DNA of 64,000 nucleotides. Origin: Kordia jejudonensis. GTDB taxonomy: Bacteria > Bacteroidota > Bacteroidia > Flavobacteriales > Flavobacteriaceae. The DNA is taken from assembly GCF_001005315.1 (NCBI RefSeq), contig NZ_LBMG01000038.1, forward strand, positions 1 to 64,000. The letters are read 5' to 3'. Both the position numbers and the translations under genes were made by a program. Below, in pieces: positions 9,298-52,311 of this stretch. The first letter of the stretch is position 1; each line of letters opens with the position of its first letter. The notes beneath the pieces are model-generated. The model was not told the DNA's origin. It searched no databases and was given only the letters and a program-made list of their open reading frames with translations.

Positions 9298-9744
9298 TTA
9301 TAAGTTAGCAGTTTCTATTTGTTGAATGATCAGTGATTCGATTTCGGTTCTATCTTTTTTTGAAAACCAAGAAAGTTCAATGTCTAATTGTTTTCCATCA
9401 TTTGAAATAATGTACGGTTCGCTTCCACCTTTGCCTTTGTGATATGATTTTATTTCCGAGAAATCTCTTTTAAAACGGTTGGTGCGAAGTGTTGTTGCAT
9501 TGATGGTAACTTGCGGTTTTCCTCTCACAATCACTAAAAGAATGGCGAGTAAGAGAATGATACCCACGAAAGCATTCAATACATATTCTGTAGCAACCAT
9601 ATTTTTTCGAAGTGCTCTGCTAAGTTTTTCTGCAATTAGATCTGATGCTTCCGTGATAAAATAGAATGCCAAACCTAGTAAAATAACAATGAACAGTATT
9701 TTGATAAAGTATGAAAATTGTGAATAATATCGTTTCTCTTTCAT
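9298..9744 (-). CDS. Two-helix membrane protein of unknown function
   Basis: The 148 residues have hydrophobic segments at about 12-30 and 52-72, then a cytosolic-looking beta-rich tail (residues 75-148). The tail resembles small PH-like domains found on bacterial membrane proteins, but the match is weak. It lies 6 bp upstream of rsmA and 17 bp after the DUF4286 gene, so it belongs to that operon. Confidence 0.65.
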   Translation of the reverse strand: MKEKRYYSQFSYFIKILFIVILLGLAFYFITEASDLIAEKLSRALRKNMVATEYVLNAFVGIILLLAILLVIVRGKPQVTINATTLRTNRFKRDFSEIKSYHKGKGGSEPYIISNDGKQLDIELSWFSKKDRTEIESLIIQQIETANL

Positions 9745-9761
9745 GTGTCTAAAGTCAATAA

Positions 9762-10076
9762 TTATGCTGTGAAATCTTGAATTACACTGAGTTCTGTGCG
9801 GAATGCGAGCATTTTATCAGCAAATTTTTTCATACCATCTTCTCGCAAACGCGTTGCATCTTCATTGTAATATGCTTCTATATTTTCTTTTGAGGTTGCA
9901 GTGTATTGTACGGCATACGTAGTTCCGCCCATTTCTTCTTCGACCATCACTTGGACGAGTCGCGCACTTGTAAATTTACCTGTGGCTAAAACTTCAGGAA
10001 TATGTGTTTTTATCCAAGTTAAAAACGCTTCGTGAATACTTTCGTCAACATTGATCGTTACATTATAAATGTACAT
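9762..10076 (-). CDS. DUF4286 family protein
   Basis: This 104-residue protein has the DUF4286 start MYIYNVTINVDESIHEAFLTW and the conserved YAVQYTATSKENIEAYYNE region. The predicted fold is a ferredoxin-like (dimeric barrel) domain, and function is unknown. Its position next to rsmA and a TPR gene is a familiar flavobacterial arrangement. Confidence 0.85.
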   Translation of the reverse strand: MYIYNVTINVDESIHEAFLTWIKTHIPEVLATGKFTSARLVQVMVEEEMGGTTYAVQYTATSKENIEAYYNEDATRLREDGMKKFADKMLAFRTELSVIQDFTA

Positions 10077-10140
10077 AGCTGTGTTTTGTAATTTGAGTAC
10101 AAAATTACGATTTTTAAATTTCAGAAAGGGAAAACAGCCA

Positions 10141-11925
10141 CTAATTAATTGTGTCGCCGCGTAACTTTCGATAGGCTTTTTGTGCTTCTACGTAGTGAAT
10201 ACTGTCTTGATGATTGAAAATGATTTCTTCAAAGTAATCTTTTGCTGTATCAGGATCATCAAATTCGGTAAGGTACAAGTTGGCAATCGCAAAGTATGCA
10301 TCGTCTACCAAAATATCATCTTTAAAAAACTCAATGATTTTTTTGTAGTTCAATCGTGCTTTGTCAAACTCATTTCGTTTTTCGTACAATTCGGCTTGCA
10401 TCAACAAAGCTTCATCTTCAATTTTTTCGCCTTTATGATTTTGTAAAATATCTTCTAAGGTATTGATGGCTTCTGTTTCTTTTAATTGATACGCCAATAA
10501 ATCTGCTTTCGCGTATTTTTTCAAGGCTGTTTGTGTAGAATCTTCTAAGGAATTGTCTGAGATAATTAATTTCAACTTTAAAGCATCATTTGCAATGAGT
10601 TGTGAAACCGACGATTTTAAAACTTTTAGCTGTGTTTCTGCCCAAGCAAAGTCGCCTTTGTAATAACTCGTGCGCGCCACTCGATACCGTGCTTCTTGTC
10701 CAATAATATCGTTTTTCAAGGCTTTTTGAACTTGTGAAAAGTAAATTAACGCCTGATTGAATTGTTCTTGATATACCAAAATATCGCCGAGCGCCAATTT
10801 TACGGTGGCAAGCTGTCGTTTGTTTAGCGGTTGCTGAATGGTTTCTTTTAAATACGTAATTGCAGCATCTGGTTGATTTTTCTGAAACGCCATAAAGTTT
10901 GCGTAATCACGTTGCAACAAAACCGTTCGGTAGTCGCGCGGATATTCTGTAAAAAGTTCGTCAAATCGTTTTTGAATTTCTTCGTAATTTCCGTTTGTTA
11001 CAGACTCAATATCGAGCTGAATTAACAATTGTGAAGCACGAATAATCGTTTCATTCTGATTTGATTTTTCAATAATATATGTCAACACTTCACGTGCCGT
11101 TTCGTCGTCATTATCTTCAATACTCATGCGCGCCAAGTCAAAAATCCGTTGCAAAGAAGCATCGCCTTGCATGTAGATTGCCTTTTCTTGGATAAATGCT
11201 CTTTTGTATTGTTTTTGTTGAATAAACAACCAACTCAAGAGTTCATTCCACAATAAATCTGGTTCTTGTTGATTGCGTTTGAGCAAAATTTTTCGGAAGA
11301 GAATATTGTTTTCATCATTGGGATCATTTCGTAAAAACTGACTAATAATCCGTTGTGCATATCCTTTTTGTTCTACACGATCTTTGATTAAATCCAAATA
11401 GCTTGAAAACATTTTTTCGATGTCTCCTTTTTCGCCATAAATTCTAGCAATATTGTTGAGAAAATTATAATTTGGATTTGCCGCACGTGCTTGTTGGTAA
11501 ACGCGCAATGCATAATCAAGCAATGACTTTCTTTCAAAAGCACGTCCAACGATATAGGAAGCCGAAATTTTAGATTCGGTATATTCAATTCCTTTTTGGT
11601 AATATTTTTTTGCGTTAATCGAATCTTTCTTCAAATCATAATTAAAGCCAGTTTCAACAAATAATATAGGACTCGCTTTGGGCTTTTGAATTGCTTCTAA
11701 TAGTAGTTTTTCGGCAGTATCAAAGTCTTCCATTTGCTGGTAACTATTGACGATTCCAATGAAATAATTGATTTTACGCGGCGATTCTTTGTAGAGTTTT
11801 TCAAAAGCGACAATTGCTTTTTTGTATTCTCCTTTTTCATAATATTGACGCGCCAATGCATCATTTTGTGCCAATGTAGTGCTGTACATTCCCAAACTGA
11901 TGAGTAAACATAAAATATAACGCAT
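10141..11925 (-). CDS. Exported tetratricopeptide-repeat protein
   Basis: Using the ATG at 11923-11925 gives 594 residues with a clean signal peptide (MRYILCLLISLGMYSTTLAQ). A longer frame to 12003 adds an unlikely 26-residue head. The mature part is a chain of TPR helices, for example ARQYYEKGEYKKAIVAFEKL at the start and the FDDPDTAKDYFEEIIF end repeat. Such periplasmic TPR proteins scaffold envelope complexes. It lies 64 bp upstream of DUF4286 in the same direction. Partner proteins are unknown. Confidence 0.85.
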   Translation of the reverse strand: MRYILCLLISLGMYSTTLAQNDALARQYYEKGEYKKAIVAFEKLYKESPRKINYFIGIVNSYQQMEDFDTAEKLLLEAIQKPKASPILFVETGFNYDLKKDSINAKKYYQKGIEYTESKISASYIVGRAFERKSLLDYALRVYQQARAANPNYNFLNNIARIYGEKGDIEKMFSSYLDLIKDRVEQKGYAQRIISQFLRNDPNDENNILFRKILLKRNQQEPDLLWNELLSWLFIQQKQYKRAFIQEKAIYMQGDASLQRIFDLARMSIEDNDDETAREVLTYIIEKSNQNETIIRASQLLIQLDIESVTNGNYEEIQKRFDELFTEYPRDYRTVLLQRDYANFMAFQKNQPDAAITYLKETIQQPLNKRQLATVKLALGDILVYQEQFNQALIYFSQVQKALKNDIIGQEARYRVARTSYYKGDFAWAETQLKVLKSSVSQLIANDALKLKLIISDNSLEDSTQTALKKYAKADLLAYQLKETEAINTLEDILQNHKGEKIEDEALLMQAELYEKRNEFDKARLNYKKIIEFFKDDILVDDAYFAIANLYLTEFDDPDTAKDYFEEIIFNHQDSIHYVEAQKAYRKLRGDTIN

Positions 11926-43445: not shown

Positions 43446-44018
43446 TTAGAATTTATATTTAAACCCAAGCATATAATTTCCTTCTCCGCTATTAAAAGTT
43501 AACTCGAAATGTTCTCTTTGATAAGGAGTTGTAAATAAGTACGTACTTCCAATACCAACAACTATTCCTCCTAAAATGTCCCATCCATCGTGCCTGTCAT
43601 TAATACCTTCGATTCTACTATATGCTACAAATCCTGCAACTGCATAGGCAGGAATTCCATAGCCCCAACCATAACGTCTTTGTAAAAAAGAAGCCCCTGA
43701 AAAAGCGACAGATGTATGTCCAGAAGGGAAAGCTTTTCCATCAGTTCTTCCATCAGGTCTTGGTTTGTCTATTGCATATTTTAATATATAGGTCAATCCA
43801 AGTGTCGTACCATAAGATTTTGTGAATTGCCAAAATCCTTTTTTATCTTTTTCAGCAATAATAACGACTAAAGATGTTAGAGCGGGTAAGTGCTGTAAAT
43901 AATCTCCAGCTAATTCTAGGTTTGTTTCTCTCCTTATTTCAGATGGAGAGTCAAAATCTTGTGCCAACATAACTAATGGTGTAGTAACCATTATCAATAA
44001 AAAAAATATTCTCTTCAT
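43446..44018 (-). CDS. PAP2-family lipid phosphatase (copy 1 of a tandem pair)
   Basis: The 190-residue secreted protein has a signal peptide (ending VMLAQ) and the three PAP2 motifs: KYAIDKPRP, PSGHTS and SRIEGINDRHDGWD. The last has seven residues between Arg and His, where the consensus has five. It ends in a beta-rich, barrel-like tail ending YKF. Its neighbour at 44036 is a clear paralogue, 17 bp away, so the pair arose by tandem duplication and is co-transcribed. Likely substrates are envelope lipid phosphates. Confidence 0.85.
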   Translation of the reverse strand: MKRIFFLLIMVTTPLVMLAQDFDSPSEIRRETNLELAGDYLQHLPALTSLVVIIAEKDKKGFWQFTKSYGTTLGLTYILKYAIDKPRPDGRTDGKAFPSGHTSVAFSGASFLQRRYGWGYGIPAYAVAGFVAYSRIEGINDRHDGWDILGGIVVGIGSTYLFTTPYQREHFELTFNSGEGNYMLGFKYKF

Positions 44019-44035
44019 TAAATTAACTATGTGAA

Positions 44036-44608
44036 TTAAAATTTATACGTAAAGCCAACGAGAAAGCCTTTTTCATCACTCTTAAAAGTGAGTTCCATGT
44101 GTTTTTGTTGATATTCAGTAGTAAACAACAAATTACTTCCTAGTCCAATAATAGAGCCTGCAATGACATCTAATAGATCATGCTTATTTGAGTCTATTCT
44201 GCTTGCTGCTGTAAATCCTGCTAGTGCATACGCGGGTATGCTGTATTTAAAACCATAGCGTCTGTGGATGTATCCTGCACTATGAAAAGTTATGGAAGTA
44301 TGACCAGAAGGAAATGAATTATCATTACTCATATCTGGTCGTTGTTTATTGATACTAAGTTTTAAGGCGTAAGTCATTCCTGTAGTCAACAAAAATCCTT
44401 TAGTGAATTGCCAAGCTCCTTTATTATCTCCTATAATGAATGAAGTACTCACAGATGCTAATGGAAGACTTATTAAAATTACATCTCCAATTGTTTGTGT
44501 TGTTCCTGCTTTTGGTTTTGTTTCACTGGTATCTTGCGCTGTAAGATCAGCAGGATAGATACTTAAAAAAAAGCATAATAATAAAGTCTTTATAAGCTTA
44601 CATTTCAT
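44036..44608 (-). CDS. PAP2-family lipid phosphatase (copy 2 of a tandem pair)
   Basis: The 190 residues start with a signal peptide and carry KLSINKQRP, PSGHTS and SRIDSNKHDLLD. The last motif has the canonical SR-x5-H-x3-D spacing. The ending YKF and the segments around RRYGFKYSIPAYALAGF match copy 1. A regulated promoter lies at 44637-44671. Removal of phosphate from lipid A or undecaprenyl diphosphate is plausible. Sequence alone does not separate these. Confidence 0.87.
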   Translation of the reverse strand: MKCKLIKTLLLCFFLSIYPADLTAQDTSETKPKAGTTQTIGDVILISLPLASVSTSFIIGDNKGAWQFTKGFLLTTGMTYALKLSINKQRPDMSNDNSFPSGHTSITFHSAGYIHRRYGFKYSIPAYALAGFTAASRIDSNKHDLLDVIAGSIIGLGSNLLFTTEYQQKHMELTFKSDEKGFLVGFTYKF

Positions 44609-44636: not shown

Positions 44637-44671
44637 TAAATTTATATTGGAAATCTTAAGAAAATTTAAAG
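44637..44671 (-). promoter_or_regulatory. Envelope regulon promoter E (PAP2 pair)
   Basis: Minus strand: CTTTAAA (44671-44665), 4 nt, CTTAAGA (44660-44654), 9 nt, then TAAATTTA (44644-44637), seven of eight matches to TAnnTTTG. The start codon is 28 bp further. Confidence 0.7.
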
Positions 44672-44691
44672 TCTTTTCAATAAAGTATATT

Positions 44692-45573
44692 TTACATTAT
44701 CACATTTAGTGCATTTTTCTTAATGTCAATTAATAATATATTATTTTCTATTATTGAAAATTCGCCATCTATTTGGGAAGAAAAAAACTCACCTTTTTTC
44801 ATTGCTAGAAAGATTGATGATGATCTATAATACTTAGCTTCTTTAAATAATCTTGGTTTTTTGATGAGTAAATAAAAACCAAACAAAAGAATTTTCAGCC
44901 TACTAATTTTGGGAACTATAACGATATCTAAAAGTCCATCTTGCAAGGATGCAGAAGGAGTTAAACTAAAATTATAGCCTAGTTGATTAGAATTAGAAAT
45001 AAAAATGAGGAAAGGGTTCATTAATTCGTAATTACCGTCAATGTTTATGATAACTTCTTTTCTTTTATTGTATTTGAGAAAAGACTGAACAGTCGCTTTT
45101 AAATAGCAATAAAGTGTTCTTCTGTTGAGAGCTTCATAGTTTTGTATGACATTAGCGTCAAAGCCAAAACCTGTATTACTAAAAAAATAACGTTTATTTA
45201 CACAACCTGCATCTATTTTAGAAATTTCGCCATTTCTTATTTTGTTTAACGCTTTATTAATATTTTTCGGAATACCTAAATGAGACGCTAAACCGTTTCC
45301 TGATCCTTTAGGGACTATTCCAAATAGAATAGAAGTTCCTACAAGAACAGAAGCAACTTCATTAATGGTTCCATCACCACCACAAGCTACAATAATATCA
45401 ACTTTTTGATGTACTGATTCTTTAGTTAAATCAACTGAGTGCCCTTTGTAATTTGAAAATTTTATACAAATATCAAACATTTCTACCTCAAAATAATCTT
45501 GGAGAATTTTTTTAGAAATAGTATTGCGACCAGATCCTGCAATTGGATTAACTATGAAGTGAATTTTTATCAA
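44692..45573 (-). CDS. Diacylglycerol kinase-family lipid kinase (YegS/DgkB type)
   Basis: The 293 residues have the DAGK catalytic start FIVNPIAGSGR (about 6-16), the nucleotide loop CGGDGTINEVA (about 64-74) and the PKGSGNGLASHLGIP segment (about 92-106). A C-terminal beta domain with SQIDGE follows. It phosphorylates diacylglycerol or related lipids. EptA-type transferases release diacylglycerol from phosphatidylethanolamine, so this kinase would recycle it. It has its own copy of the shared promoter box, divergent from the PAP2-eptA operon. Confidence 0.9.
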   Translation of the reverse strand: MIKIHFIVNPIAGSGRNTISKKILQDYFEVEMFDICIKFSNYKGHSVDLTKESVHQKVDIIVACGGDGTINEVASVLVGTSILFGIVPKGSGNGLASHLGIPKNINKALNKIRNGEISKIDAGCVNKRYFFSNTGFGFDANVIQNYEALNRRTLYCYLKATVQSFLKYNKRKEVIINIDGNYELMNPFLIFISNSNQLGYNFSLTPSASLQDGLLDIVIVPKISRLKILLFGFYLLIKKPRLFKEAKYYRSSSIFLAMKKGEFFSSQIDGEFSIIENNILLIDIKKNALNVIM

Positions 45574-45646
45574 TACAATTTTATATTTGAATATTTTACA
45601 GATGATACCATCTTGTAAATGACTTTGAATCTTGATATAAAACTTC

Positions 45647-45681
45647 CGAAATTACTATTGAAATCTTAATTAATTCTAAAG
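45647..45681 (-). promoter_or_regulatory. Envelope regulon promoter D (lipid kinase)
   Basis: Minus strand: CTTTAGA (45681-45675), 4 nt, ATTAAGA (45670-45664), 9 nt, TAATTTCG (45654-45647), seven of eight matches to TAnnTTTG. It points to the lipid kinase start at 45573 and lies back to back with promoter C. Confidence 0.65.
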
Positions 45682-45700
45682 AAAAAAATGATCAAAAAAT

Positions 45701-45735
45701 CTTTAAGTTTTCTTTAGAATTCGACTATAAATTGG
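45701..45735 (+). promoter_or_regulatory. Envelope regulon promoter C (PAP2-eptA)
   Basis: Plus strand: CTTTAAG (45701-45707), TTTT, CTTTAGA (45712-45718), 9 nt, TAAATTGG (45728-45735), seven of eight matches to TAnnTTTG. It drives the operon starting at 45800. Confidence 0.7.
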
Positions 45736-45799
45736 CGTAAAAGTTAAACATTACAACTACAATGTTCCCCTTTATTAACTTGATTCTGAAGTCAATTTT

Positions 45800-46681
45800 A
45801 TGATAAACAGTATAGCATTAGATACCTCCATAAGAGATAAAATCAAAACTGATAGTATCGTTATCCAAAATTTTAAAAAAGTAAGTTTGAATTTAGTAAT
45901 AGTACCATTTTTATTATTACTAATATTCTTTAGTTATTATTTATTTTCATTTGATGGTTCTTTTGTAAGCACCTATGTTGATTCACAAAAAGATATGTTT
46001 TTAGAGCTAAATGAAATCTTATCAACGTATCCAAATCTAGCATATAATGTGACATATTTAGGAGATGCAAGAGTAATGTTTCCATTTATTTTTATATTTC
46101 TTTTTGTTGCACCAAAACTTTGGGAAGCTTTATTGACTTCATCCATACTCACATTAATTACATCAGCCATTCTTAAACATATATTAGCAGTTCCCAGACC
46201 CGCAGCCGTAATGGACATGGATACATTCACTATTATGGGAAGACCAAATATTTTACATACTTCATTACCATCTGGACACGCAATGACCGCGTTTATGATT
46301 ATAACTATTTTATTGTTTGCGTTCATGCCAAAAAAAATGGTGCATAGAATTTATTGGACACTTTTTTTAATTACAATCGCTTGTATTATTGGTCTTTCAA
46401 GAGTTGCTGTTGGAGCGCACTATCCTGGAGATGTCCTCTTTGGAGCTTGTTTGGGTTTTATTATTGCTGTTATTGGTATTAATTTGAATAGAAATATCAG
46501 TTGGTTGTACTGGATGAAATTAAAAAAATATTATCCAATTATTTTTTTAATTTTAATGTATTGGTTTTACTTGATTCTTATGAAAACTGTAAAACATAAT
46601 ATTCCAATATTTTATTTTTCTTTAATAGCATTAATGTTTACTTTTTTCTCAATAACAAAGGAATATGTCAAAAAAAATTAA
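45800..46681 (+). CDS. Integral membrane PAP2 phosphatase
   Basis: The 293-residue membrane protein has six to seven hydrophobic segments and all three canonical motifs: KHILAVPRP, SLPSGHAMTAF and SRVAVGAHYPGD. It resembles LpxE/LpxF-like or PgpB-like phosphatases more than the small secreted pair. The coding end overlaps the eptA-type gene by 17 bp. This supports a joint role in editing lipid A phosphates before phosphoethanolamine is added. Confidence 0.87.
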   Translation: MINSIALDTSIRDKIKTDSIVIQNFKKVSLNLVIVPFLLLLIFFSYYLFSFDGSFVSTYVDSQKDMFLELNEILSTYPNLAYNVTYLGDARVMFPFIFIFLFVAPKLWEALLTSSILTLITSAILKHILAVPRPAAVMDMDTFTIMGRPNILHTSLPSGHAMTAFMIITILLFAFMPKKMVHRIYWTLFLITIACIIGLSRVAVGAHYPGDVLFGACLGFIIAVIGINLNRNISWLYWMKLKKYYPIIFLILMYWFYLILMKTVKHNIPIFYFSLIALMFTFFSITKEYVKKN

Positions 46682-48185
46682 ATTAAGTTACTTTGCGCTA
46701 TTTGTAAGCTTTATTAATTTAATTCTCTATCAATATCCTTTTTTCAAGTTTGTTTTCGCAAATAAGAATATTGGAAGTTTTAATGGCGTATTATTTCTTC
46801 TTAGTCTAATAGTTGCTTCGATATTATTAAATGCGTTTGCCTTTTATATTGGTATTTATTTAATGCGAGTTGTTGGTAAGTATTTAATTATATTACTATT
46901 TAATATTAGTGCCGTTGCAGTGTATTTTATAAATACTTATGGAGTTATTTTGGACAGGACTATGATTGGTAATATACTCAATACTAATTATGAAGAATCT
47001 ACAAGTTTTTTGTCATTCAACTTATTTTTATATCTGATTATTCTTGGAATCATACCAAGTATCTTCATATACAAGGCGGATATCATAATCCCTAAAATTA
47101 AAATATTTGCGTTAAATTCTGTTGTAACGTTACTACTGCTTGGAACCTTAGCGTATGTAAACTCATCTAATTGGCTTTGGATTGATAAAAATTCAAAAAC
47201 TTTAGGTGCTACTACTATGCCGTGGTCTTATGTTGTTAATACTTTTAGATACTACAGTCATATCAATAAGAAAAATGAAAAACAAATTTTATTGCCAAAT
47301 GCTACTATAAAAGATTCCACAAAATCAATTGTTGTACTGGTTATTGGAGAATCCGCTAGAAGTAGTAATTTTTCCTTATATGGATATGATAGAAACACAA
47401 ACCCTTTACTTTCTAATATTGATAATGTAAACCATTTTAAAACTCAATCTTGTGCTACATATACAACTGCTGGTCTTAAATGTATCTTAGAACATGAGAA
47501 CACAGGAAAACTTTATGAAATATTACCAAATTACTTGTACAGGAATGGTGTAGATGTTATATGGAAAACTACTAATTGGGGAGAACCTACAATAAAAGTA
47601 AAAAGTTTTCAAAACAAAGATTTTTTAAGACAAAACTGTGAAGGTGAAATTTGTGGTTACGATGAAATATTATTAAAAGATTTACAGCAAGAGATAGAAA
47701 ATAGTGAGAAAAATAAAATTCTCATTGTCTTACATACAAATACAAGTCACGGTCCAACATACTACAAAAAGTATCCGAAACAGTTTGAAAAATTTAGTCC
47801 AGTATGTAAAAGTGTAGAATTAGCTAATTGTACTCAACAAGAACTTATAAATGCGTATGATAATACGATTCTTTATACTGATTATATATTAGCGACTTTA
47901 ATTGAACAATTGAAAAAGATAGAAAAATATGAGTCATCTATGATATACATTTCTGATCATGGAGAGTCATTAGGTGAAAATAATCTTTACATGCATGGAA
48001 TACCATCAAGTATAGCTCCGACAGAACAATTAGACATTCCTTTTATTGTATGGTCATCTAATACATCTAAAATAATAAAAGAGGATCAAGAATATTCACA
48101 ACACAACATATTTCATACTGTCTTAGACCTATTATCAGTTGAAAGTCCAATTTATGAGGAAAGTATGAGTATCTATGAAAAATAA
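46665..48185 (+). CDS. EptA/MCR-type phosphoethanolamine transferase
   Basis: The 506 residues have five N-terminal membrane helices (to about 170), then a periplasmic alkaline-phosphatase-fold domain. Metal and nucleophile residues are visible: Glu229 in IGESARSS, Thr267 in SCATYTTAGLKC, and the DHGESLGEN region with the later His in LYMHGIP. Cys pairs suggest the usual disulfides. It transfers phosphoethanolamine from PE to lipid A, lowering surface charge and affinity for polymyxin-like peptides, and releases diacylglycerol. The exact acceptor (lipid A or another glycan) is inferred. Confidence 0.88.
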   Translation: MSKKIKLSYFALFVSFINLILYQYPFFKFVFANKNIGSFNGVLFLLSLIVASILLNAFAFYIGIYLMRVVGKYLIILLFNISAVAVYFINTYGVILDRTMIGNILNTNYEESTSFLSFNLFLYLIILGIIPSIFIYKADIIIPKIKIFALNSVVTLLLLGTLAYVNSSNWLWIDKNSKTLGATTMPWSYVVNTFRYYSHINKKNEKQILLPNATIKDSTKSIVVLVIGESARSSNFSLYGYDRNTNPLLSNIDNVNHFKTQSCATYTTAGLKCILEHENTGKLYEILPNYLYRNGVDVIWKTTNWGEPTIKVKSFQNKDFLRQNCEGEICGYDEILLKDLQQEIENSEKNKILIVLHTNTSHGPTYYKKYPKQFEKFSPVCKSVELANCTQQELINAYDNTILYTDYILATLIEQLKKIEKYESSMIYISDHGESLGENNLYMHGIPSSIAPTEQLDIPFIVWSSNTSKIIKEDQEYSQHNIFHTVLDLLSVESPIYEESMSIYEK

Positions 48186-48231
48186 AGGATTCTTGTAAAT
48201 TTTAAATACTTTATATCCTAAACTAGATGAT

Positions 48232-48273
48232 TTTGATATTTGATGCTAATATTTAAAAGCACCAAATATCAAA
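48232..48273. terminator. Bidirectional terminator between converging genes
   Basis: TTTGATATTTG (48232-48242) pairs with CAAATATCAAA (48263-48273). TGCT/AGCA continues the stem inside after one mismatch. It serves the eptA operon from the left and the PepSY-like gene from the right. Confidence 0.8.
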
Positions 48274-48281
48274 TTTATCTA

Positions 48282-48728
48282 TTAATCTTCTTTAATAGTG
48301 CCAACTATCTTGCCTTCAAGATTAATAGAAACTTCTAACTCAGCATCACCTTTCTTTAAGCTAAACTCATACAATGTTACAGAAGGTGTTTCAGAAATTT
48401 CTATTTCGTCTATGTTATAGTTCGGAAATTCTGCTTTTAAATTACTCAGAATTTCTTTAGAGATTTCTGAAACCTCTATCTCATGTTCGGTTTCTCTCCA
48501 TGAACCATCTAATCCAAAATTAGCTGAATATTTCGTAGTATTCATTTCAAATTCTGCTTCCCATTCTGTATCGTTTTCTTTTTCCCATTCTATTTTGGTA
48601 GCACTAGGAAACTTTGATAAGAAAGCTTCTTGAACTGTTTTAGGGGCGTTAGTTTGCTTAACTTCTTTTTCATCGCATGATAAAAATAGTAAACATATAA
48701 ATACATTTGTAAGTAATTTTATTTTCAT
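48282..48728 (-). CDS. PepSY-like (DUF2874) lipoprotein
   Basis: The 148-residue protein has a lipoprotein signal (LLFLSCDEK) and two repeats of the PepSY-like fold. The first begins VQEAFLSKFPSATKIEWEKE, followed by the strand pattern DTEWEAEFEM. The second runs through LKAEFPNYNIDEIEISET. Such periplasmic proteins often accompany two-component systems and may modulate the sensor. Its promoter carries a 29-bp element shared exactly with the barrel gene at 48829-50232. Confidence 0.85.
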   Translation of the reverse strand: MKIKLLTNVFICLLFLSCDEKEVKQTNAPKTVQEAFLSKFPSATKIEWEKENDTEWEAEFEMNTTKYSANFGLDGSWRETEHEIEVSEISKEILSNLKAEFPNYNIDEIEISETPSVTLYEFSLKKGDAELEVSINLEGKIVGTIKED

Positions 48729-48749
48729 AAATTCTTTATTTTATAAAAG

Positions 48750-48795
48750 GTAAGTTATTACTAAATTCTAAAGACTATTTAAAGGAAATCTAAAG
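48750..48795 (-). promoter_or_regulatory. Envelope regulon promoter A (PepSY-like gene), triple repeat
   Basis: Minus strand: CTTTAGA (48795-48789), CTTTAAA (48784-48778), CTTTAGA (48773-48767), each 11 bp apart. After 9 nt comes TAACTTAC (48757-48750), six of eight matches to TAnnTTTG. The 29-bp box is identical to that at 50282-50310. Confidence 0.75.
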
Positions 48796-48828
48796 TTTAT
48801 CAAAAAAGTTTTTTGAAGTAATGTAAAA

Positions 48829-50232
48829 TTAGAAAACTTGTCCTATGCCTATATAAAATAGTCCATCCTCTTTAGATTTACCATAATCAAAAGAAATTAT
48901 GGTAGACTGATTCCAAGCTACACGTAAACCTGCTCCGTAAGATGTTTTAATTTTACTAAAATTTAAGTTTTGCCATTTGTCTCTAACGGTTCCTGCATCA
49001 AAAAAGGGAGCCACACCAAAAGCTAAACGCTGTTTTCCTATAGAGAATTCAGTAAATCTATAACGTAGTTCAAAATTTGCAAACCATAGTGATCTTGCCA
49101 AAAACCTATTGGCTCTATAACCACGTAGCGATTGTTTACCTCCAAGCGCATTAATACTTCCGTCTGGACTCCATTGATCTTGAAATTCAAAAAATGGAGC
49201 ATTACTGCCAAAAATATTACCTATACCCAATCTACTTGCAAATACTGTACGCTTGCCGAACGGTATCTTTTTGTAATATCTACCTTGAATGAATAATTTA
49301 TTGAAATTGAATTCAGAACCAATGATATTACTTGAATATTCATTTGCGATTTCAAAATAAAATCCTTTTGTTGGATCTGGTTCAAAATCTCTAGTATCAT
49401 ATATTAACGCAGTCTGTAATATAGATACCCAACCACCATCTAATCCTGATATTTTATTTTGTTCAAAATCTCTCCGTAATAGTGAAACACCATTTGGTGC
49501 CTGAATAGTATTTCCTGTATTTGGGTCTATTGCGTCTGCTTCCTTTCCTTCAAAAGTTTTATACTTTAAATTTTGTATTTCATATCCTCCCATAATACGC
49601 CATTTTCCATTACCAAGAGCATAATCTGCCTTCAAATTAAGCATATATTCTGTTTCACGAAAACGGTTAGACAAGGCATCGGTTACAAAATCTGCTTCTC
49701 CATTTTGCCCTGGACGTAATCTTTTTCTAGCTCTATCATAATCAGCATAGGTGCTGAATGTTTCTCCATTTTGTGATGATGGCAATCTTAAAGGGTTTAA
49801 GGTTGCTTCTGTAAGTCCAAAATAGAGATTAGCAGGATTCTGCTGTATTTTAACATCTACCTTAAATCTCCAACGAGAACCTTTGTAATAAGGTACATCT
49901 AAAGATAAAGTCAATTCTCTAGCGTTTGAAGTATAATAAGCCACATTTGCTTTCAGTTTCGCTAGATAAGGTGTGTACGCAAACAATTCGTTGTCTCGTG
50001 TCCCATTCCAATAAACATTACCTCTTACTCCAAAACCAAAGCCAGTGATTGGGTCAGAAGAAAAGTCTGGAATTCCAGTAAAAAAAGTTCCTTCCTTTTT
50101 TTTAGCCAAATCATCATCAGACATTCTTTTGGATTTAATAAAAGAGAGCGAGTCTTTAACTTGAGAATTACATAGGTGTGTTGAAAAGGCTAGAATCAAA
50201 GCTAGAGTCCAAACCTTATTAATTATTTTCAT
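48829..50232 (-). CDS. BamA/TamA (Omp85)-family outer membrane protein
   Basis: The 467 residues have a signal peptide, then a 16-strand-type barrel with the Omp85 C-terminal features: GGKQSLRGYRANRF (the conserved RGF/Y loop 6 motif) and the ending GIGQVF. No POTRA repeats fit in the short N-terminus, so this is a patatin-less, POTRA-less surface-antigen barrel. It may help place surface lipoproteins or LPS-related proteins. It shares its promoter element with the PepSY-like gene and follows the sensor kinase gene. Confidence 0.85.
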   Translation of the reverse strand: MKIINKVWTLALILAFSTHLCNSQVKDSLSFIKSKRMSDDDLAKKKEGTFFTGIPDFSSDPITGFGFGVRGNVYWNGTRDNELFAYTPYLAKLKANVAYYTSNARELTLSLDVPYYKGSRWRFKVDVKIQQNPANLYFGLTEATLNPLRLPSSQNGETFSTYADYDRARKRLRPGQNGEADFVTDALSNRFRETEYMLNLKADYALGNGKWRIMGGYEIQNLKYKTFEGKEADAIDPNTGNTIQAPNGVSLLRRDFEQNKISGLDGGWVSILQTALIYDTRDFEPDPTKGFYFEIANEYSSNIIGSEFNFNKLFIQGRYYKKIPFGKRTVFASRLGIGNIFGSNAPFFEFQDQWSPDGSINALGGKQSLRGYRANRFLARSLWFANFELRYRFTEFSIGKQRLAFGVAPFFDAGTVRDKWQNLNFSKIKTSYGAGLRVAWNQSTIISFDYGKSKEDGLFYIGIGQVF

Positions 50233-50264
50233 ACGTTCTTAAATTAACTATACAAATTCAGAGG

Positions 50265-50310
50265 CAAAATTAATTTTAGAATCTAAAGACTATTTAAAGG
50301 AAATCTAAAG
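50265..50310 (-). promoter_or_regulatory. Envelope regulon promoter B (Omp85 gene), triple repeat
   Basis: The same three 11-bp-spaced repeats sit at 50310-50304, 50299-50293 and 50288-50282 (minus strand), overlapping the kinase stop codon. After 9 nt follows TAATTTTG (50272-50265), a perfect TAnnTTTG match, 32 bp before the start. Confidence 0.8.
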
Positions 50311-51579
50311 TGAATTATAAGAGAATGTATATTGGTGCATACTGTCTTTAAAATGGTATTGAATTGACATTTTATGATAGTCACAAATTTTTTTGACGAT
50401 AGCCAACCCTAACCCTAAAGATTGAGTGTTATTGTTTTCTTTGTAAAAGCGTTGAAATATTTTTTCAGGTGCATGTAAGATTTCAGTTCCACTATTACTT
50501 ATGGATAAATTATTCTCGGTAATCGAAATAACTATTTTTCCATTTTCAGCGGTGTATTTAATTGCATTACCTATTAAATTTGAAATTAAAACATCCAACA
50601 AGGTTTTATTCATTAATAGTGTAACTATATCGCGCTCCTTGTAAGAAATTAGTATTTTTTTACTTTTAGCTATTTCTTCAACCGCTTCTATAATTGATGA
50701 TACACGCTCATTAAGATTGATACTTTCTGTTTCTGAAAATTGTTGATTATCAATTTTAGTTAGTAAAATAAGACTTTTATTAAGTTTTGATAATCGTCTT
50801 ACATTTCGCTGTATATCATTTAATGTAATTGTGTCTCTTTCACTTAAAACACTGGAATTGTCTATCAAGTTTTCAATTTTGGCTTGGATAATGGCTAAAG
50901 GAGTTTGAACTTCATGAGAGACATTTTCAGTGAATTGTTTTAAGTTTTCATAATCTGAAATAACCTTTTCTGTTAATGATTTTAAATTGTCATTAAGTTC
51001 AACAAACTCTAAGATATCAGAATCCTTCAATTCAATTTTTGATTTTGACTTAACAGAAAATGCTTTGATTGCTTCCAAATTTTCAAAAAATGGCTTCCAT
51101 ATTATTTTATTTATGTAGTTAGTATAAAAGTATTGAGCTAAGTACATCACAAAAAATATGATAGCAAATGCAATCAAGATTGAGATTAATATATCTTCAG
51201 ATTCTACTACAAGAGTCCTAACTGTAATTTTATAGTTAACATTATTTACTTTTATAAATGTATTTAACTCACGAAATTCTTCATCTTCATTTTGAGAAGC
51301 ATCATAAAGAACTACATAACCAATTGATTGTGGTTTAATTTCACTGACTTCACTAACTTCAAATAAAGGACTCAAAGAAGTTACTGTTTTGTTTTGTTTT
51401 AAGAGTTCCTCTATTCTATGAGTAGATGAATAAAGACCTTCATCAGTCTCATCTTTAATAATAGCATTTGTAATAAAGTATAAGGAAATAAGACATAATA
51501 AAGCAAGAACTAATCCGAACTGAATGTAGCTTTTTGCAATTTTTTTTAGAAGCTTTATTTTGTCTTGATGTGTTTCCAA
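50305..51579 (-). CDS. Sensor histidine kinase
   Basis: The 424 residues have two membrane helices (about 21-41 and 130-151) around a periplasmic domain of about 88 residues. A HisKA domain follows with His222 (FTENVSHEVQTPLAII). The ATPase domain has LISNLIGNAIKYTAENG (N box) and SLGLGLAIVKKICDYHKM (G box). The overall design matches PmrB/PhoR-type OmpR-partner kinases. It lies 1 bp after its response regulator and probably senses cationic peptides, metals or envelope stress. Confidence 0.93.
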   Translation of the reverse strand: METHQDKIKLLKKIAKSYIQFGLVLALLCLISLYFITNAIIKDETDEGLYSSTHRIEELLKQNKTVTSLSPLFEVSEVSEIKPQSIGYVVLYDASQNEDEEFRELNTFIKVNNVNYKITVRTLVVESEDILISILIAFAIIFFVMYLAQYFYTNYINKIIWKPFFENLEAIKAFSVKSKSKIELKDSDILEFVELNDNLKSLTEKVISDYENLKQFTENVSHEVQTPLAIIQAKIENLIDNSSVLSERDTITLNDIQRNVRRLSKLNKSLILLTKIDNQQFSETESINLNERVSSIIEAVEEIAKSKKILISYKERDIVTLLMNKTLLDVLISNLIGNAIKYTAENGKIVISITENNLSISNSGTEILHAPEKIFQRFYKENNNTQSLGLGLAIVKKICDYHKMSIQYHFKDSMHQYTFSYNSL

Positions 51580-51580
51580 A

Positions 51581-52258
51581 TTATGAGTTTTCAGTAAATT
51601 TATATCCGCTACCGTAAGCGGTTTTTATGTACTTTGCTCCAGCAGTACTTATTTTTTTTCGCAAGTTATTAATATGTACATAAATAAAATCAAAATTGTC
51701 TAATAAATCACTTTGATCTCCCCATAAATGTTCTGCGATGGTTTCTTTTGAAAGAACTCTTTCCTTATTGGTAATAAAAAATAATAATAAATCATATTCT
51801 TTTCGGGTTAACTGAATTGAATTATTATTTACAAAAACTGTCCTAGCGTCAGTATTCATTTTAATTTCATTAAAGATTATATGTTCCCCACCATTTTGTT
51901 TCCGTCTTCTAAATATTGCTTTTATACGCGAATTTAGTTCCGCTAGATGAAAGGGTTTTGTCATATAATCGTCTGCTCCTAAATCTAATCCTAGTAATTT
52001 GTCGTCCAAAGAACTGTTAGCTGAAATGATTATAATGCCCGTATTATTATTTTTATCTTTCAGTAATTTGATAACATCTAAACCACTTCCTGTAATAAGA
52101 TTAATATCTATTACCGCAATATCATATTCGTATAATGACGCTTTATAAATCGCTTCTTCATAATCAGAAGCGACTTCACACACATTATTCTCTCTTTTTA
52201 AAAAAGTAACAATAGATTGCTGTAATTCTATTTCATCTTCTGCTATGAGAATTTTCAT
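51581..52258 (-). CDS. OmpR/PhoB-family response regulator
   Basis: The 225 residues have a receiver domain (acidic pocket EDE at 7-9, phosphoacceptor Asp51, GADDYMTKPF) and a C-terminal winged helix (about 130-225, ending KYIKTAYGSGYKF). Regulators of this class bind as head-to-tail dimers to direct repeats about 11 bp apart. The shared promoter element shows this spacing, so this protein is the best candidate to bind it. The gene itself carries one (promoter F), implying autoregulation. Confidence 0.93.
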   Translation of the reverse strand: MKILIAEDEIELQQSIVTFLKRENNVCEVASDYEEAIYKASLYEYDIAVIDINLITGSGLDVIKLLKDKNNNTGIIIISANSSLDDKLLGLDLGADDYMTKPFHLAELNSRIKAIFRRRKQNGGEHIIFNEIKMNTDARTVFVNNNSIQLTRKEYDLLLFFITNKERVLSKETIAEHLWGDQSDLLDNFDFIYVHINNLRKKISTAGAKYIKTAYGSGYKFTENS

Positions 52259-52276
52259 TTTAAAAAAAATTATAGA

Positions 52277-52311
52277 TAAATATAGTGTATAAATCTAAAT
52301 GTATTCTTAAG
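52277..52311 (-). promoter_or_regulatory. Envelope regulon promoter F (two-component system)
   Basis: Minus strand: CTTAAGA (52311-52305), 4 nt, ATTTAGA (52300-52294), 9 nt, TATATTTA (52284-52277), seven of eight matches to TAnnTTTG. It lies 18 bp before the response regulator start and suggests feedback control. Confidence 0.65.

Follow-up and report, generated by a model that had tools for sequence, protein, structure and literature searches.

What could place six neighbouring transcription units of a flavobacterium under one signal, and which protein would read it? The question is raised by a 64,000-nucleotide stretch of the Kordia jejudonensis genome (contig NZ_LBMG01000038.1, positions 1 to 64,000; hereafter the window), in which a 35-bp module stands at the head of each of six units that together occupy the region from 43.4 to 52.3 kb (hereafter the island). 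The module consists of two CTTWARA-type 7-bp repeats, a gap of 9 bp and a TAnnTTTG-like element. We conclude that a two-component system encoded in the island, i.e. a PorY-family sensor kinase and an OmpR/PhoB-type response regulator, very probably controls a small envelope-remodelling regulon through these boxes, from which the regulator would act in class-II position.

The boxes are of the type CTTWARA-N4-CTTWARA with a repeat period of 11 bp. Aligned, they give CTTTARA-N4-CTTTAGA, and the variant CTTAAGA also occurs. All six were re-located at the coordinates and on the strands given by an earlier reading of the letters alone (hereafter the sequence-only reading). That reading had also placed the box exactly 9 bp from the -7 element in all six promoters and had matched the latter to TAnnTTTG at six to eight of eight positions, and both statements hold: among the six specified letters, the Omp85 promoter has no mismatch, four promoters have one and the PepSY promoter has two. 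This -7 element is of the Bacteroidota type, which, like the Nonlabens relative described below, fits a flavobacterial origin. Within the window, the three-repeat layout is limited to the PepSY-like and Omp85 promoters, whose 29-bp three-repeat copies (48767-48795 and 50282-50310) lie 1.5 kb apart and are identical, as had been claimed. The Omp85 promoter extends into the 3' end of the kinase gene and carries a degenerate fourth repeat, CTTATAA, in register (50315-50321). The lipid kinase and PAP2-eptA boxes stand head-to-head at 45664-45718, with 19 bp between them.

Could such repeats be accidental, or copies of a mobile repeat that landed in promoters? The exact 29-bp duplicate fits this explanation, as does the frequency of the box by itself: with two mismatches allowed there is no enrichment in the window (40 matches vs 39.9 expected), nor is there any for the exact box in the K. 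jejudonensis genome (eight matches vs six for a reversed control pattern). The unusual feature is that five of these eight sit in the island; they stem from three promoters, of which two were matched in both registers. The whole 35-mer behaves differently. Leave-one-out matrix scores of the six sites are 27.4, 20.8, 24.7, 18.9, 25.0 and 10.1 bits, and five of them exceed the maximum of 16.5 bits in a Markov control with 20 window replicates; the autoregulatory two-component site (10.1 bits) is not significant in this test, and the PepSY and Omp85 sites are not mutually independent because their box is identical. A second profile (R1) was built on sequence only from 36 sites, all from other genera (i.e. 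38 relatives' sites with TAnnTT at +9, minus two removed by hand). It ranks the six sites first to sixth in the window (24.6, 24.3, 21.9, 20.8, 18.1 and 18.0 bits, the seventh match reaching 11.5), and over the 5.36-Mb genome its top five matches lie in the island (24.6 to 17.7 bits), followed by one elsewhere at 16.3 bits. The assertion of the sequence-only reading that chance is unlikely is borne out by the Markov test and the R1 ranking for the whole 35-mer, and not for the box by itself.

The same reading had called for a genome-wide scan. Our scan for the full site found no comparable score outside the island, with limited sensitivity: rescoring by the full matrix covered 28 loci (the next 25 profile matches and three exact-box loci) and the remainder was covered by the profile alone. 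The best of these 28 off-island loci scores 13.5; none of the island's six sites scores below 21.8. The lipid kinase site itself came up in the genome-wide R1 search merely as a 9.7-bit fragment, so an off-island site could have been overlooked.

The geometry of the module is conserved in relatives. The regulator is patchily distributed, being present at at least 67% identity in 12 of 148 other genomes (one per genus) and in 2 of 11 genomes of its own genus, and the genes around it vary, with PAP2, lipid kinase, EptA and PepSY-like genes in differing combinations. Across 14 relatives' loci (269 kb), selection by the box only gave 73 sites, of which 65 are intergenic. TAnnTT lies at +9 in 42 of these 65 and at +20 in 12, and no other offset from 0 to 30 has it in more than six; +20 equals 9 + 11, as expected from the upstream register of triple boxes. 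Orthologous promoters, named as a check by the sequence-only reading, carry the site; this check and, within its sensitivity, the genome-wide scan both come out in favour of that reading. For example, Nonlabens antarcticus (L138; regulator 69% identical, among the matches listed) has five matrix sites, of which one immediately precedes its regulator gene, as well as six profile matches at E < 0.01 (profile E-values are rough throughout). Chance is ruled out by the Markov test, the +9 geometry, the R1 ranking and the co-occurrence described below. The geometry is identical in independent promoters of many genera whose flanks have diverged, and the box tracks the regulator across genomes, so that chance or a mobile repeat deserves practically no credence.

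Which protein reads the box? Among 397 genomes, sites at E <= 5e-4 are found in 27 of the 33 that encode the regulator at at least 54% identity and in 3 of the 364 others (Fisher p 8e-33); one of the 33 (G308) was included after a contig end proved to truncate its regulator gene. When the 11 genomes behind the profile are set aside, the counts are 17/22 vs 3/364 (p 2e-22), or 16/21 if the K. jejudonensis genome is removed too. Two of the three exceptions have their sites inside open frames (L221 and L222), and the third is genome G378 (see below). Within the genus, sites at E < 0.01 occur in both genomes with the regulator and in none of the nine without it. The box also precedes the regulator's own gene at 16 of 17 relatives' loci at at least 67% identity (15 genomes plus the miss), the sole miss (L051) being a regulator gene with an internal stop. 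We regard the predicted binding of the box by the adjacent OmpR/PhoB-type regulator as well supported by co-occurrence, autoregulation in close relatives and conserved geometry. At the L051 locus, the regulator gene (9610-10275(+), genome G117) contains an internal TAG; no site was detected before it, and one is retained before a PepSY-like gene.

The following observations weigh against the regulon as proposed: (i) the 54% identity line was set after inspection of the data, and lowering it to 52% changes the counts to 27/38 vs 3/359; (ii) six of the 33 regulator genomes (G346, G120, G117, G019, G385 and G186) have no site at E <= 5e-4, and rescanning of five of them gave weaker matches only (best E 0.002-0.03); (iii) in G378 a PAP2 gene is preceded by a perfect site, and the genome has no regulator at E <= 1e-50; (iv) at a laxer E <= 0.05, weak matches appear in five of the nine sister species that lack the regulator; (v) in the clade with 54-59% regulator identity the box precedes the regulator gene at none of ten loci (L052-L055, L229, L230 and L248-L251) and marks other genes there, so autoregulation is not general; (vi) the relatives' sites were located with the window consensus and profile sites were picked for TAnnTT at +9, which makes their recovery less than fully independent; and (vii) the regulon of K. 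jejudonensis seems confined to the island. Points (iii) and (v) would also fit a different OmpR-family regulator of the same genome reading the box, with the adjacent pair merely one of its targets, and a first look yields 53-57 regulator-like candidates in K. jejudonensis. Yet the ten sister species contain 42-97 such candidates each, and sites at E < 0.01 are confined to the single species that encodes this regulator; together with the skew of sites towards regulator genomes, this makes another reader improbable.

Two observations stand beside these counts. The G378 site (L247:6341-6375(+)), before a PAP2-like gene, has a matrix score of 41.8, among the highest recorded (top 42.7, L040), and upstream of it lie genes for two weakly kinase-like proteins (23-24% identity). 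In one Chitinophaga relative, whose regulator is 54% identical (among the matches listed), the regulator gene is immediately preceded by a weak related site (L135:9962-9996(+)), so the box could predate the family.

The position of the box suggests how it could work. It lies where the -33 TTG of the Bacteroidota promoter type would be, and TTG is missing from the -33 zone of 41 of 42 promoters. Because of this position and the missing TTG, the promoters look activator-dependent, and the regulator probably acts as an activator in class-II position; in part, however, TTG is absent simply because the box occupies that zone. OmpR-type regulators can also act as repressors, but a regulator that represses from these boxes is very improbable given the activator-dependent look of the promoters.

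We propose the following sequence of events for activation by the adjacent pair. The periplasmic domain of the kinase would sense an envelope disturbance, possibly cationic peptides or metal ions, and the phosphorylated regulator would bind two 7-bp repeats head-to-tail, 11 bp apart. Pairs of 7-bp repeats with 4-bp spacers are bound by other OmpR/PhoB-type proteins such as PhoP of Mycobacterium tuberculosis (PMC4832192). The regulator would then replace the -33 contact and recruit RNA polymerase, i.e. class-II activation, and would activate its own operon. EptA and the PAP2 phosphatases would be switched on, leading to lipid A dephosphorylation and phosphoethanolamine addition, and the lipid kinase could recycle the diacylglycerol that EptA would release. 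EptA draws its phosphoethanolamine from phosphatidylethanolamine, according to passages of PMC8306577. The Omp85-family and acidic PepSY-like proteins would be activated as well, and their promoters probably differ in threshold or strength because they contain three or more repeats.

The promoters and genes of the island are listed in Table 1. The identification of EptA from its model score is firm. The acidic PepSY-like protein of the window contains 29 D+E vs 14 K+R beyond residue 20.

Table 1. Boxed promoters and genes of the island (positions are those of the window)
Feature	Position	Strand	Layout or basis
PAP2-pair promoter	44637..44671	-	two repeats 44654-44671, 9 bp, TAAATTTA
Lipid kinase promoter	45647..45681	-	two repeats 45664-45681, 9 bp, TAATTTCG; head-to-head with PAP2-eptA promoter
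PAP2-eptA promoter	45701..45735	+	two repeats 45701-45718, 9 bp, TAAATTGG
PepSY-like gene promoter	48750..48795	-	three repeats 48767-48795, 9 bp, TAACTTAC
Omp85 gene promoter	50265..50321	-	three repeats 50282-50310 plus degenerate fourth, 9 bp, TAATTTTG
Two-component operon promoter	52277..52311	-	two repeats 52294-52311, 9 bp, TATATTTA
PAP2-family protein, second of pair	43446..44018	-	Pfam; LpxE-like NCBIfam NF007159 37.1 bits, below cut-off 177
PAP2-family protein, first of pair	44036..44608	-	Pfam; LpxE-like NF007159 39.2 bits, below cut-off 177
YegS/diacylglycerol-kinase-type lipid kinase	44692..45573	-	Pfam PF00781, PF19279
PAP2-family phosphatase, first gene of PAP2-eptA	45800..46681	+	Pfam PF01569, open reading frame list
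EptA, lipid A phosphoethanolamine transferase	46665..48185	+	NCBIfam NF007160 667.8 bits, cut-off 561
Acidic PepSY-like protein, lipoprotein-like N terminus by eye	48282..48728	-	Pfam PF11396
Omp85-family outer membrane protein with DUF5982	48829..50232	-	Pfam; NCBIfam NF047779 522.6 bits, cut-off 200
Sensor histidine kinase, PorY family	50305..51579	-	NCBIfam NF052314 415.4 bits, cut-off 350
OmpR/PhoB-type response regulator, proposed box binder	51581..52258	-	Pfam Response_reg, Trans_reg_C

The regulator consists of a receiver and a winged-helix domain (Response_reg 78.7 bits and Trans_reg_C 72.7 bits, both over the Pfam cut-off), and its best PDB matches are DrrD (1kgs), followed by PmrA/BasR (8jo2 and 4s04). 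The kinase passes the PorY model, and in family alignments its periplasmic domain largely conserves a D-x4-E-x-E-x-[FY]-R-[EQ] pattern. The fold of this sensor domain is predicted at pLDDT 88; a Foldseek search against the PDB returned nothing at E 0.001 or better and weak PAS/LOV-like matches only, so a ligand cannot be inferred from it.

The sequence-only reading had called the system a PmrA-like regulon. This stands by analogy and falls as a statement of membership. The regulator does not pass the NCBIfam PmrA model (NF007928, 147 bits vs cut-off 330), nor does the kinase pass the PmrB model (NF008025, 76.4 vs 314), and PmrA/PmrB membership is rejected on these scores. Both systems have an OmpR/PhoB-type regulator and head-to-tail half-sites with an 11-bp period; the consensus here reads CTTTARA-N4-CTTTAGA, and CTTAAGA, close to the CTTAAG type of PmrA, is among the variants. 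For comparison, the PmrA half-sites of Klebsiella pneumoniae pbgP are CTTAAT and CCTAAG with five base pairs between them (PMC3973317, in part), and eptA is described as controlled by PmrA/BasR (PMC2904496). A boxed promoter, which would put these genes under similar control, lies before PAP2-eptA here and before an ArnC/ArnT-like operon (model scores below cut-off) in relatives. The recognition-helix residues V192, H193 and N196 of PmrA align with V194, H195 and N198 here; N196 is a base contact in PmrA (passages of PMC4660055), and the same N is found in DrrD. By contrast, the minor-groove R210 of PmrA aligns with Y215, which is invariant in 18 aligned regulators. Further differences from PmrA are the Bacteroidota-type -7 element, the PorY-family kinase, the PepSY-like, Omp85 and RND targets and the triple boxes.

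In target set, the ColR/RaxR regulons (PAP2/lpxE, eptA, arnT and dgkA) are the closest match, at least as close as that of PmrA. In ColR-ColS and RaxR-RaxH of Pseudomonas and Xanthomonas, the regulator pair likewise adjoins PAP2/lpxE, eptA and arnT genes in varying combinations, and the ColR regulon takes in a PAP2 gene and dgkA (passages of PMC8306577 and PMC2689224). The ColR motif given there (ACGNNTTTTTNAC) is unlike this box: it is absent from the six promoters at up to one mismatch and has one exact match in the window, at 11137-11149. The ExxE sensor motif of PmrB and ColS is present in the kinase of the window but is not conserved across its family, in which E-x-E-x-[FY]-R-[EQ] is largely kept in its place; this is a further point against the regulon as proposed.

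Two further systems share single features with the island. The kinase belongs to the same NCBIfam PorY family as that of PorX-PorY in Porphyromonas gingivalis; its partner here, unlike in PorXY, is of OmpR/PhoB type, and most of the boxed genes that were examined belong to the envelope, whereas PorXY governs type IX secretion genes among others (PMC8050853). In the lpxE-eptA operons of Capnocytophaga canimorsus and Helicobacter pylori, the PAP2-type phosphatase and EptA genes overlap as they do here, by 20 bp in C. canimorsus (PMC4730577, in part) compared with 17 bp in the window. Deletion of lpxE and of eptA in C. canimorsus cuts the minimum inhibitory concentration of polymyxin B, and the operon confers polymyxin B resistance (same source); 'two-component' is absent from the main text of that paper, and its passages on the operon describe no regulator.

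We then compared the boxed genes of relatives. The first gene after the site is the regulator at 13 loci, a PepSY-like gene at seven and a PAP2b-like gene at five; others are EptA, a TonB-receptor-like gene, a sulfatase-family gene with a lipid kinase, an OEP-HlyD-RND operon and a GT2-LAB_N-PMT operon. The best models for the GT2 and PMT proteins are ArnC and ArnT, both below cut-off. The lipid kinase lies behind the sulfatase-family gene in four relatives (Pfam was run on one) and beside PAP2-eptA in the window. Some targets would fit a signal other than cationic peptides. The RND permease has the heavy-metal CusA/CzcA model as its best match (below cut-off), and one weak site (L047) has a PhoX-type gene in its vicinity. 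The regulon could then answer metal, in the manner of ColRS and zinc, or phosphate, with lipid A remodelling as one arm; this alternative touches only the signal and leaves the mechanism proposed above intact. Excess zinc makes ColRS activate eptA and lpxE (passages of PMC8306577), and the repeat and spacer lengths fit M. tuberculosis PhoP too (PMC4832192, in part), whereas the regulator falls short of the Bacteroidota model for PhoB (154 bits vs cut-off 270) and no phosphate-uptake gene is found among the 20 target-region proteins scanned with Pfam. On balance, we consider a metal or phosphate signal in place of cationic peptides unlikely, though by no means negligible, zinc or iron being conceivable candidates.

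Does the number of repeats carry information? Of 10 PepSY-like promoters, 8 carry a third, upstream, in-register repeat, as against none of 34 promoters of the other named classes, i.e. regulator, PAP2, EptA, sulfatase, RND, TonB-receptor and GT2 (Fisher p 3e-7), in a count that omits L052-L055 and sites scoring below 19 and in which some target classes were hand-assigned. This third repeat is also found in two of nine unclassified or contig-edge sites. A partly overlapping set gives 12 of 16 PepSY-like promoters (that of the window included) vs none of 17 regulator promoters. The PepSY-like proteins are acidic, with net charges of -8 to -26 beyond residue 20 in 11 relatives' sequences.

In the sister clade with 57-59% regulator identity, the box heads units of ~200-290 bp (L053:12724-13494(-), L054:7505-8037(-), L251:2867-3408(-) and L249:2903-3144(+)). 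There are three units in L053, two each in L054 and L251, and one in L249, which is cut by the contig end; those of L053, L054 and L251 sit between the kinase gene and gyrB. Complete units seem, by eye, to finish in an intrinsic terminator, and those of L053 and L054 contain no ATG-started frame of at least 25 codons. Seven units fold more stably than shuffled sequences (z -3.8 to -8.0, or -1.3 to -5.1 with the terminator removed); these are single-sequence folds, used as a consensus fold on a poor alignment gave 0 pairs. The sister-clade units have TGAGGGGA in common, and Rfam has no match at the candidates in L053, L054, L212 and L214. We regard these boxed units as candidate small RNAs. Two tandem boxed units also stand beside a gyrB-like gene at L212:2698-2956(-) and L248:3445-3700(+) (G119 and G323); by eye, one has a frame of ~47-50 codons and the other, apparently non-coding, has a hairpin.

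A tentative and somewhat doubtful extension would be that repeat number is a conserved, output-specific code, with two repeats for autoregulation and enzyme operons and three for acidic PepSY-like proteins (and Omp85 here). One regulator might thereby set separate thresholds, one for the enzymes and another for a class of proteins that could dampen the stress or act back on the kinase. In the sister clade, the same box might drive structured small RNAs, encoded in tandem between the kinase gene and gyrB.

In brief, because the PmrA/PmrB models failed, the ColR motif differs and ExxE is unconserved, the island appears to represent a new envelope-remodelling two-component regulon that works through a different kinase family. 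No description of such a system in Bacteroidota was found in the top-listed titles and abstract openings of open-licence PMC papers. The finding would provide a regulon at binding-site level for lipid A and envelope remodelling in Bacteroidota, would link a kinase of the PorY family with a partner of OmpR type and with envelope targets, and offers a ready matrix for regulon annotation in other genera. It also suggests convergence, with unrelated two-component systems in separate phyla having come to control similar sets of targets.

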